Below, piece by piece: positions 16,502 to 20,150 of a DNA stretch of 38,193 nucleotides; the first letter of the stretch is position 1; each line of letters opens with the position of its first letter. The stretch spans positions 1-38,193 of the forward strand of contig JASMHZ010000011.1 in assembly GCA_030750465.1 (NCBI GenBank). Reading direction: 5' to 3'. Position numbers and translations under genes: made by a program. Below the pieces are notes generated by a model. That model had not been told where the DNA came from. It made no database searches and saw only the letters and a program-made list of their open reading frames with translations. Source of the stretch: Candidatus Peribacteraceae bacterium (GTDB lineage: Bacteria > Patescibacteriota > Gracilibacteria > Peribacterales > Peribacteraceae).

Positions 16502-17930
16502 AACAAGTGTTTTAACTGGCTCGAATAAAGATCTTTGGTTGGAAATCCTAAAGAAAATACAACCACAGGTACAGCGGGGTCAGTTTGTAACTTGGTTCAG
16601 AGATACGACTGTTTTGGGAAGAGATGGAGGAAAATTGATTGTTGGCTTGCCGATTCCAATGGGGCTGAATTGGCATATCGAGCATTACAAAGGGAAAACT
16701 TTGGTTGCTGCACAGGAGTGCGATTCTACAATCGAGCAGATCGTTTACAGAGTAGATGTAGGGCTAAAAGACAATCCAGAAAGGTCGATTGATTTACTTA
16801 TTCAATTTCCGGAAGATAAAAAGAGGAAGCTTCCCGGCAAACAGGAAGTAAAAATGGCAGAAGGGATTATAAGCAAGATACTCAGCCCTCGTTATACGAT
16901 AGATAACTTTATAGTAGGAGAGTCGAATCGTCTTGCACACGCAGCATGTCAGGCGGTATCCAATCAACCTGGTGGTAAATACAATCCGTTATTCTTGTAC
17001 GGGGGAGTGGGACTTGGAAAGACTCATTTGCTTCAGGCGACGGGGAATTCAATCTTGAAGCATATGCCAAAGGCTACTGTTGTTTATACAACTAGCGAAG
17101 ATTTCACGAATGAAGTAGTGGAAGCCATACGAATGCAAAAGATGGAAAAAGTTCGTGGCCGTTACCGCAAAGTTGATGTTCTGATAATTGATGATGTTCA
17201 ATTTCTTGCAAACAAAGAGCGAACTCAGGAGGAATTTTTCCACACATTCAATACTCTTTACGAGGAGCACAAACAGATAATTATTTCGGCTGACCGCCCT
17301 CCGCAAGAACTTGATCTGGAAGATAGATTAGTTTCCAGATTCGAGAGGGGAATGATAGCGGACGTAAGCAAACCGGATTACGAGACGCGCCTTGCAATCT
17401 TGGTCGAGAAAGCCAAGGAGTATGAGTTGTTTATTGAAATGAATGTTCTCCAATTTATCGCGGAACATACGACCAATAGTGTCAGAGAACTTGAAGGAAT
17501 ACTAATGCAGGCAGTTGCACTTTATGAGCTTGAACAGCGCATGCCTACCATTCAATCAATAGCTCAAATAATGAAGAAGCTTAATAAAGATCCACATTTG
17601 GAAGAGCAAGACACTGGGTTCGAAAAGAAGGAGAAAAGGCGTCCTACTTTCCAGGAAGTAATCGAAGCTGTCAGTCGTTACTATTCAGTATCAGTTCAGG
17701 ACATGATCGGACCGAAGAGAAATCGCGACATACTTTTGCCCCGCCAGATTGCAATGTTGCTTGGAAAGAAGTATTTGAATATGAGCTATGTTGGAATCGG
17801 AGAAGTCTTCTCTAGCCGAGATCACACTACGGTAATGAATGCAGTATCCAAGATCGAAAAGAAGCTCCTAAACGATGCTCAACTCCTCAGAGAAGTCAGA
17901 GCTATTGAGGAGGAGGTGGGAGTTGTTTGA
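16467..17930 (+). CDS. dnaA: Chromosomal replication initiator DnaA
   Basis: AAA+ ATPase that opens the replication origin. The start chosen is ATG 16467 (487 residues, MTSSVSLPAKAETSVL); longer frames run into rseP. Domain I is LWLEILKKIQPQVQRGQFVTWF, domain II is short, domain III has the Walker A GGVGLGKT (179-186), Walker B IIDD (240-243) and the sensor/box VII region SRFERGMIADV. Domain IV contains the DnaA signature SSRDHTTVMNAVSKI (449-463) that reads DnaA boxes. It is unusual in lying after rseP rather than next to dnaN. The gene ends in TGA, confirming that TGA is a stop here. Confidence 0.97.
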   Translation: MTSSVSLPAKAETSVLTGSNKDLWLEILKKIQPQVQRGQFVTWFRDTTVLGRDGGKLIVGLPIPMGLNWHIEHYKGKTLVAAQECDSTIEQIVYRVDVGLKDNPERSIDLLIQFPEDKKRKLPGKQEVKMAEGIISKILSPRYTIDNFIVGESNRLAHAACQAVSNQPGGKYNPLFLYGGVGLGKTHLLQATGNSILKHMPKATVVYTTSEDFTNEVVEAIRMQKMEKVRGRYRKVDVLIIDDVQFLANKERTQEEFFHTFNTLYEEHKQIIISADRPPQELDLEDRLVSRFERGMIADVSKPDYETRLAILVEKAKEYELFIEMNVLQFIAEHTTNSVRELEGILMQAVALYELEQRMPTIQSIAQIMKKLNKDPHLEEQDTGFEKKEKRRPTFQEVIEAVSRYYSVSVQDMIGPKRNRDILLPRQIAMLLGKKYLNMSYVGIGEVFSSRDHTTVMNAVSKIEKKLLNDAQLLREVRAIEEEVGVV

Positions 17931-18056: not shown

Positions 18057-18062
18057 TATGAT
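18057..18062 (+). promoter_or_regulatory. Extended -10 of the thr leader transcript
   Basis: TGA-TATGAT, with the hexamer 7 nt before the ATG at 18070. This is the same geometry as at seven other genes in the window, and it would start the transcript at or beside the leader-peptide start codon. Confidence 0.55.
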
Positions 18063-18069
18063 GGGCCTG

Positions 18070-18117
18070 ATGCAAAAGTCCGTTACAGCAACAACTACCA
18101 CTACAACAACCTTCTAG
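18070..18117 (+). CDS. Threonine-rich leader peptide of the thrS attenuator
   Basis: A 15-codon frame, MQKSVTATTTTTTTF then TAG, with eight Thr codons, seven of them consecutive (18091-18111, mixing ACA, ACT and ACC). In-frame ATGs at 18058 and 18061 could extend it, but the -10 box at 18057-18062 would make 18070 the first base. Its stop codon touches the antiterminator segment, and threonyl-tRNA synthetase follows. By analogy with enterobacterial leader peptides such as ThrL, ribosome stalling at Thr codons when charged tRNA-Thr is scarce would choose the RNA fold. The peptide itself needs no function. Confidence 0.8.
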   Translation: MQKSVTATTTTTTTF

Positions 18118-18152
18118 GAAGGGGACTCCTGCATACTTAAATACTCTTATAT

Positions 18153-18187
18153 CGCCCCTTCCAATAGCGAAGGGCGTTTATTCTATT
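18153..18187 (+). terminator. Intrinsic terminator of the thr attenuator
   Basis: The stem CGCCC(C)TTC / GAAGGGCG (8 bp, one bulged C, 7-nt loop) is followed by the U-rich tract TTTATTCTATT. Confidence 0.75.
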
Positions 18188-18217
18188 ACCATGAGACTAT
18201 TAGCGTTTCACTTAAGG

Positions 18218-18318
18218 CCCCTCACCCAACCCCTGCCTGTCCGGCAGGCAGGCTCTCCCCCTTCTCCCTCCTTCGCTCCTTCGAAGCTTCGGAAGGGCAG
18301 GAAGGAGGAGAGGGGAAT
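18218..18318. repeat. GC-rich palindromic element between attenuator and thrS
   Basis: About 100 nt with CCTGCCTG-TCCGG-CAGGCAGG (8-bp arms) and a second, larger imperfect hairpin CTCCTTCG...CGGAAGG...AAGGAG. The edges (CCCCTCACCC... and ...GAGAGGGGAA) are also complementary. It looks like a small non-coding repeat inserted in the thrS leader; similar sequences are common in candidate-phyla genomes. Confidence 0.6.
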
Positions 18319-18332
18319 ATGGTCATCTTCTT

Positions 18333-18338
18333 TATAAT
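18333..18338 (+). promoter_or_regulatory. Possible second thrS promoter (-10)
   Basis: A perfect TATAAT lies 18 nt before the thrS ATG, after the palindromic element. It has no good -35. If active it would bypass the attenuator. Confidence 0.4.
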
Positions 18339-18356: not shown

Positions 18357-20150
18357 ATGGCAAAGGAAATGGATCCAGATCTCTACAATCTCCGCCACTC
18401 CTGCTCGCATGTTCTTGCGCAGGCTGTTATGAATCTATGGCCGGATACAAAGATTTCCATTGGTCCTCCAATAGATTACGGGTGTTATTACGACTTTCAG
18501 TTCAAGGAGCCGATTACAGATGAGGATTTTAAGAAAATTGAGAAGGAAATGCGGTCGATAATCAACAAAGGACAGAAGTTCGAGGAAGAGAAGATGTCTT
18601 CTGACGATTCGATTAAGTTTTGGAAGAAGATGAAGCAGCCATTTAAGGTTGAGCTGGTTGAAGACCTCAAAAAGGATGGAGAGATGCAAGTTACTCACTA
18701 CAAAAATGTTGATGCAAAGGGTGCGGAGACTTTCGTGGACCTTTGCGCGGGCGGACACAAGGAAGATGCATCGGAAATTCCTGCTGACGGATTCAAAATC
18801 ATGTCTCTTGCAGGAGCTTATTGGCGGGGGGATGAAAAAAATCAGCAATTAACTCGTATTTATGTAGCTGTATATCCTTCAAAAGATGAATTGCAAGCTT
18901 ACATAACTATGATGGAAGAAGCTAAGAAGAGAGATCATAGAAAACTAGGAAAAGAATTGGATTTATTTACTTTTAGCGACATGGTTGGGCCGGGCTTACC
19001 TCTTTGGACCCCGAAAGGAACTGTAATTTGTGATGAGCTGGAGAAACTTGCCAAGGAAATGGAGGATAATGATGATTATGTACGCGTCAGAACCCCTCAT
19101 ATTGCCAAAGGCAAACTTTATGAACAAACAGGACACCTCGCGCATTACAAAGAGGCAATGTTTCCTCCAATGGAAATTGATGGTGAGGAAACTTATTACT
19201 TAAAACCGATGAATTGTCCGCATCATCATGAGATTTTTGCTTCACAACCAAGAAGTTACAGAGATCTTCCTATTCGAATGGCTGAATATGGACATTGTTA
19301 CAGGTACGAAGACTCAGGAGCATTGTTTGGTTTGATGAGAGTCAGATCACTTTCAATGAATGATGCACATATGTACTGCACAGAGGAGCAATTTGAGGAT
19401 GAGTTTATGGCGGTTACAAAAATGTACCTTAAATATTTCGAAATATTCGGAATTGATAAGTATAAAATGAGATTTTCACTGCACGGCAAAGATGGATTGG
19501 GTGAAAAGTATGTTAATGAGCCGGAACTTTGGATAAAGACCGAAGAAATGGTCAGAAATGTTATGAAAAAGTCAGGTTGTGAGTTTGAAGAAGTACCTGA
19601 TGAAGCAGCTTTTTATGGTCCGAAGATAGATATAGAAGTTTGGAGTGCGATAGGAAGAGAATTTTCTATTGCGACGAACCAAATTGACTTCGATGTTCCG
19701 GGAAAGATGGGACTTAAGTACATAGATAAGGATGGATCGGAAAAAACTCCTTTATGCATACACCGCGCACCGCTTGGAACGCACGAACGAACTATAGGAT
19801 TTCTGATAGAGCACTTCGCAGGTCTTTTCCCGTTATGGCTTGCGCCGGTTCAGATGGGAGTTTTGCCTGTTGCAGAACCTCACATCAAATATGCTCAGGA
19901 AGTCATTCAAAAACTTAAAAAGCAGGGACTTCGTCCGCAATACATGGACCCTGCTGATTCGTTGGGCAAGAGAATTAGAGAAGGTGAGAAGCAAAAGTAT
20001 CCTTATCTCTTGGTTTTGGGGGAGAAAGAAGTCTCGGGCAACTCAGTTGCCTTAAGGAATGTAAAGACGAAGGAGCAGGTAGAGGTTCCGTTAGACGAGT
20101 TTATAAAGAGGGCAGTTGAAGATGTGAAAGAAAGAAGACTCTATACTTAA
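18357..20150 (+). CDS. thrS: Threonyl-tRNA synthetase lacking the TGS domain
   Basis: Class II synthetase charging tRNA-Thr. Start 18357 (MAKEMDPDLYNLRHSCSH, 597 residues) is preferred to the TTG at 18339. The protein begins directly with the editing domain (HSCSH 14-18; CAGGH 130-134), so the N-terminal TGS domain of about 60 residues found in E. coli ThrRS is absent. The catalytic core has MNCPHH (zinc ligand Cys287), motif 2 RYEDSGALFGLMRVRSLSMNDAH (zinc ligand His338) and motif 3 with CIHRAPLGTHERTIGFLIEH, followed by the anticodon-binding domain (VLPVAEPHIKYAQEV...). Expression is probably set by the attenuator upstream. It lies 8 nt before the lgt-like gene. Confidence 0.96.
   Translation: MAKEMDPDLYNLRHSCSHVLAQAVMNLWPDTKISIGPPIDYGCYYDFQFKEPITDEDFKKIEKEMRSIINKGQKFEEEKMSSDDSIKFWKKMKQPFKVELVEDLKKDGEMQVTHYKNVDAKGAETFVDLCAGGHKEDASEIPADGFKIMSLAGAYWRGDEKNQQLTRIYVAVYPSKDELQAYITMMEEAKKRDHRKLGKELDLFTFSDMVGPGLPLWTPKGTVICDELEKLAKEMEDNDDYVRVRTPHIAKGKLYEQTGHLAHYKEAMFPPMEIDGEETYYLKPMNCPHHHEIFASQPRSYRDLPIRMAEYGHCYRYEDSGALFGLMRVRSLSMNDAHMYCTEEQFEDEFMAVTKMYLKYFEIFGIDKYKMRFSLHGKDGLGEKYVNEPELWIKTEEMVRNVMKKSGCEFEEVPDEAAFYGPKIDIEVWSAIGREFSIATNQIDFDVPGKMGLKYIDKDGSEKTPLCIHRAPLGTHERTIGFLIEHFAGLFPLWLAPVQMGVLPVAEPHIKYAQEVIQKLKKQGLRPQYMDPADSLGKRIREGEKQKYPYLLVLGEKEVSGNSVALRNVKTKEQVEVPLDEFIKRAVEDVKERRLYT

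Follow-up and report, generated by a model that had tools for sequence, protein, structure and literature searches.

Background

The gene of threonyl-tRNA synthetase, thrS, is controlled by a T-box in B. subtilis and by an mRNA operator that ThrRS itself binds in E. coli. A different principle operates at the enterobacterial thrABC operon, where the thrL leader (Rfam RF00506) combines a Thr-rich leader peptide with the stems 1:2, 2:3 and 3:4 and an intrinsic terminator; in E. coli, thrL contains Ile codons besides those for Thr.

Leader peptides are also known or proposed at synthetase genes, including pheST, and attenuators have been described for trpS and leuS in Streptomyces (PMC1262725). 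For thrS, a leader peptide has been proposed in Streptomyces lividans (thrL-thrS), one of several leader peptides of this species for which leaderless transcripts are reported; its thrL, MKRVRPFLETTPGFVPAR, has 2 Thr and no clear terminator (PMC8079986). At hisS/hisZ of bacilli, a leader peptide is found in some lineages or paralogues and a T-box in others (PMC2965389).

Here, we analysed a 38,193 nt stretch of DNA (the window) from a Candidatus Peribacteraceae bacterium, in which a Thr-rich leader precedes thrS. The genome is Candidatus Peribacter-like, with an assembly of 1.0 Mb in 64 contigs, and the closest named record is UBA2144, whose ThrRS is 94% identical to that of the window. The complete RF00506 model can be aligned to positions 18066-18183, with a score (17.5 bits, E 0.67) far below the gathering score of 55. 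Unlike thrL, which controls a biosynthesis operon, the window leader stands before a ligase gene, and in contrast to E. coli thrL it has no Ile codons. In gamma-proteobacterial pheST and Streptomyces trpS and leuS a synthetase is likewise attenuated via its own amino acid, but the amino acids and phyla are other ones. The thrL-thrS arrangement of S. lividans shares with our locus the leader peptide before thrS and, apparently, the leaderless leader transcript, whereas the leaders described here have a Thr run of mostly 5-9 codons, a U-tailed terminator and co-varying arms. The first-pass annotation of this DNA knew of no leader-peptide attenuation at thrS, which the S. lividans proposal (PMC8079986) corrects; its second statement, that none was known from candidate-phyla bacteria, agrees with our search of open-paper full texts, incomplete in coverage, which returned no earlier thrS attenuator for Patescibacteria. 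The type of control is thus already known, and we found no earlier report of it in this phylum.

Architecture of the thrS leader and proposed mode of action

The leader region follows dnaA, its immediate upstream neighbour on the same strand, which ends at 17930. Direct reading of the sequence bears out what had been annotated: a 15-codon frame in which seven Thr codons follow one another without a break, three competing pairings with exactly the bases given, a TAG stop touching the antiterminator arm (18117 is the first base of arm 2), a U-rich tail after the 3:4 hairpin and threonyl-tRNA synthetase as the next gene (Table 1). One further Thr codon lies at 18085-18087. The 3:4 hairpin together with its tail was picked up by a terminator scan, and this terminator is stable alone.

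Table 1. Features of the thrS leader region, in window coordinates.
Feature	Position	Strand	Sequence and remarks
-10-like box TATGAT of the putative leader promoter P1	18057-18062	+	13 nt 5' of the leader ATG
Leader peptide frame	18070-18117	+	15 codons, MQKSVTATTTTTTTF; ATG at 18070, stop TAG at 18115-18117; read directly, kept in relatives
Seven consecutive Thr codons (putative regulatory codons)	18091-18111	+	Read directly; sole such frame in the relative G032
Arm 1	18070-18081	+	ATGCAAAAGTCC; forms protector stem 1:2 with 18123-18134
3' partner of arm 1	18123-18134	+	GGACTCCTGCAT; overlaps the end of arm 2; 10 of 12 paired
Arm 2, 5' side of the antiterminator	18117-18124	+	GGAAGGGG; pairs with 18155-18162 (CCCCTTCC), 8 of 8
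Arm 3	18153-18162	+	Used twice: 18155-18162 in the antiterminator, 18153-18161 in the terminator
Arm 4, 3' side of the terminator	18169-18176	+	GAAGGGCG; pairs with 18153-18161 (CGCCCCTTC), one bulge
U-rich terminator tail	18177-18187	+	TTTATTCTATT; read directly; terminator scan
Inserted repeat with strong hairpin, ~157 nt	18182-18338		Between attenuator and thrS
-10-like box TACTCT of the probable thrS promoter P2	18343-18348	+	14 nt 5' of the thrS ATG, after the terminator
thrS, threonine--tRNA ligase	18357-20150	+	TIGR00418, 620 bits; Pfam tRNA-synt_2b, HGTP_anticodon, tRNA_SAD

Taken together, the frame, the arms, their co-variation, the phylogenetic spread and the modelled fold switching suggest that the element very probably controls thrS by classic ribosome-mediated (leader-peptide) transcription attenuation. 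Transcription would begin at the leader AUG or a few bases off, yielding a leaderless leader mRNA. With ample charged tRNA-Thr, the ribosome would clear the Thr codons and halt at the UAG that touches arm 2, masking this arm, so that arms 3 and 4 would form the terminator and the polymerase would stop near 18187. Under a shortage of charged tRNA-Thr, the ribosome would stall within the Thr run, leaving arm 2 free to pair with arm 3, and RNA polymerase would read through into thrS. If no ribosome were present, stem 1:2 would occupy arm 2 and the terminator would form, while a second, probably leaderless promoter beside thrS would likely provide basal expression. Promoter use, termination and the response to threonine are what we infer.

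The Thr-run frame is not a chance occurrence

We scanned 1.2 of the 1.248 Mb of G032, a relative with the same element, for short frames in which Thr makes up 6 or more of 9 residues near the frame end, irrespective of position. Only one of 18,696 short frames was of this kind, and it is located directly 5' of thrS, whose own frame in G032 stays open further upstream of the predicted start. Furthermore, the first set of genomes contained 21 Thr-run frames 5' of thrS, compared with at most one such frame for each of the other amino acids on that strand. With the co-variation of the arms described below, these results show that the Thr-run frame at thrS is not due to chance. The folds of the single sequence are less telling. 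The free window RNA folds into the protector stem 1:2 plus the terminator and, without its 5' part (arm 1), into the antiterminator; the z-scores are modest (-1.1 and -1.6), so the structure alone is not beyond chance and the case rests on comparison.

Distribution and conservation of the leader

Counting runs in which 5 or more of 9 codons are Thr, we found the Thr run at 19 of the 67 thrS loci of the family, and a weaker one in G006 brings this to about 20 of 67. In the class outside this family, about 18 of 64 thrS loci show the leader layout. Some of these come from TGA-recoded genomes, whose leaders end in TAA or TAG; a leader is present in G249 (family f16). Elsewhere in the phylum, none of the 63 sampled loci was convincing. 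The difference in spread is significant (Fisher P 1.4e-5) with two distant runs counted in, those of G133 and G169, which are located ~500 nt or more upstream, lack the layout of an attenuator and were put down to chance. One Paceibacterota (L057) has the element in full: MLHEISRTTTTTTIPVGE, CCTCCCCACAGGGAGG and a U tail. Within the genus, two of the four genomes having thrS possess the leader, suggesting that it is easily lost or gained, and since about 70% of relatives, the other two of these genus-mates among them, are without the element, it must be dispensable.

In one of the 18 class-level cases (G244), the leader precedes another gene upstream of thrS: the Thr-rich leader lies ~920 nt 5' of thrS, and the open frame between them looks like an NYN-type protein. 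In G073 and G075, thrS encodes an in-frame fusion of ThrRS with an aminoacyl-tRNA editing domain at the N terminus (PF04073 match, tested on G075), and the Thr leader precedes the fused gene.

An alignment of the thrS upstream regions had been proposed as a check; the Thr-run frame is kept in relatives while its codons change, as in G003 (ACA ACG ACT ACT ACT ACC ATG ACC). This bears on two other readings of the locus. The hairpin might be the terminator of dnaA, with the Thr frame a low-complexity by-product; a terminator is indeed expected behind dnaA, and the hairpin needs no other arm for its stability. But no DnaA motif turned up within 800 nt upstream of 5 of the 18 tested leader loci, which argues that the element goes with thrS, and 31 of the 49 family loci lacking the leader still have dnaA upstream. 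The Thr codons, moreover, stay in frame as their third bases change, and arm 2 co-varies with arm 3, which a plain terminator would not need. These comparative data largely refute the dnaA reading, which we consider very improbable. Equally small is the probability of a functional gene for a small Thr-rich peptide that has its own terminator and does not regulate thrS. A short frame, a promoter-like box and a terminator would suit such a gene, which in the window is moreover separated from thrS by the repeat, but the peptide sequences diverge outside the Thr run, the position at thrS is kept over several families and the antiterminator would serve no purpose.

Co-variation of the arms and modelled switching

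In folds computed genome by genome, terminator and antiterminator both use arm 3. We compared the pairing of cognate arms with that of arms swapped between genomes in a permutation test. In the family, cognate arms paired better for 2:3 (P <=5e-5) and 3:4 (P 5e-5 to 9e-4) and, more weakly, for 1:2 (P 0.009-0.034); the control pairings 1:3 and 1:4 were not significant, and removing close relatives did not alter the outcome. Six genomes outside the family gave P 0.002 each for 2:3 and 3:4 and no signal for 1:2. Of the three stems that the first-pass annotation expected to co-vary, antiterminator and terminator thus do so in both sets, and the protector stem does so less clearly in the family and not in the six outside genomes.

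We further modelled the folding with a ribosome either stalled at the second Thr codon or positioned at the stop codon. The mean number of terminator pairs was 1.6 in the stalled case and 7.8 when the stop codon was occupied, and the direction was the same in all 25 modelled genomes, so that the competing folds behave as had been anticipated, the stalled ribosome removing the terminator and the ribosome at the stop restoring it. When the segment containing arm 2 was shuffled, the value of the stalled model rose to 7.0 (Wilcoxon P 1.6e-5). In a further 10 genomes with automatic arm detection the effect was weaker (3.8 versus 7.7 shuffled, P 0.04), and four of them showed no switching. Switching in the model was poor or absent in G005, G006, G085, G040, G218, G225, G250 and G252; G085 is without a U tail, and nearly all members have a U-tailed terminator. 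With the frame kept, the arms co-varying and the element following thrS where the DnaA motif is missing, the proposal of a threonine leader-peptide attenuator controlling thrS is supported.

Apparent leaderless transcription and a probable second promoter

Of the 20 leaders in the family, 19 have a TANNNT box that starts 12-15 nt 5' of the start codon, and none of the 20 has a Shine-Dalgarno sequence before that codon. The gene starts of G032 have a peak of TANNNT hits at the same position (25, 22, 20 and 16 per position versus a background of 3.9), and Shine-Dalgarno sequences are not enriched there genome-wide. At the G032 gene starts (L171-L230), TANNNT boxes stand 12-16 nt 5' of the start codons. 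From the box spacing and the lack of Shine-Dalgarno sequences, at leaders and G032 genes alike, the leader mRNA of the thrS attenuator is apparently leaderless, and leaderless mRNAs seem common in the family.

The thrS gene itself has no Shine-Dalgarno sequence at its start, and P2 is probably its own leaderless promoter. A -10-like box is located 13-16 nt 5' of the thrS ATG in most relatives, whether the attenuator is present or absent, which fits a further reading, that P2 is the real source of thrS mRNA and transcription from P1 affects this downstream promoter. We consider this unlikely, as the U-tailed terminator in nearly all members favours control by read-through. With a leaderless promoter of thrS apparently located behind the terminator, the attenuator probably governs only part of thrS expression, with P1 adding to a basal contribution from P2.

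The repeat inserted between attenuator and thrS in the window is missing in the nearest relative (L002) when the loci are compared, has partial copies at 7 other sites in the window's genome and folds with a z-score of -3.1. The inserted hairpin and the probable own promoter of thrS may limit the effect of the attenuator in the window.

T-box-like leaders in other Patescibacteria

A T-box signature, GGGTGGNACCG, was found 5' of thrS in 13 other Patescibacteria (L019, L155, L236, L240, L251, L258, L259, L271, L282, L284, L297, L300 and L302), five of which belong to family f9, within the same class; reversed controls for the motif gave 0 hits. None of the 60 loci searched matched the Rfam T-box at the gathering score, and at L019, which scored 20.3 bits and thus fell below the cut-off, the T-box call comes from the motif. 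A Thr leader is absent from all 13 loci, which suggests an exchange of thrS sensors within the phylum.

That a T-box or a ThrRS-binding operator also controls thrS in the window might be supposed from the known thrS controls of B. subtilis and E. coli and from these 13 motifs. We regard this as extremely unlikely: the window has no match to the Rfam T-box (RF00230), the GGGTGGNACCG motif occurs at 0 of 67 family loci and a Pfam search of the window's ThrRS did not match the N-terminal TGS domain.

Implications

The leader-peptide attenuator proposed for thrS resembles hisS/hisZ of bacilli in the alternation of leader peptide and T-box, but amino acid and phylum differ. A wider scenario, which we put forward tentatively and hold to be somewhat doubtful, is that a class-wide ancestral leaderless attenuator and the T-box replaced each other on thrS within Patescibacteria, the attenuator being the sole amino-acid leader-peptide switch left in these reduced genomes, atop a constitutive leaderless promoter. 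If thrS is attenuated as proposed, very small genomes would retain a sensor of one amino acid that is coupled to translation, and transcription and translation would have to couple closely enough for attenuation in these bacteria. The locus also provides a comparative case for the exchange of RNA sensors on one gene, which may have a Thr leader, a T-box-like leader or, in many genomes, neither. Furthermore, in a group whose members are difficult to grow in culture, the attenuator may allow leaderless translation to be probed at the level of codons.
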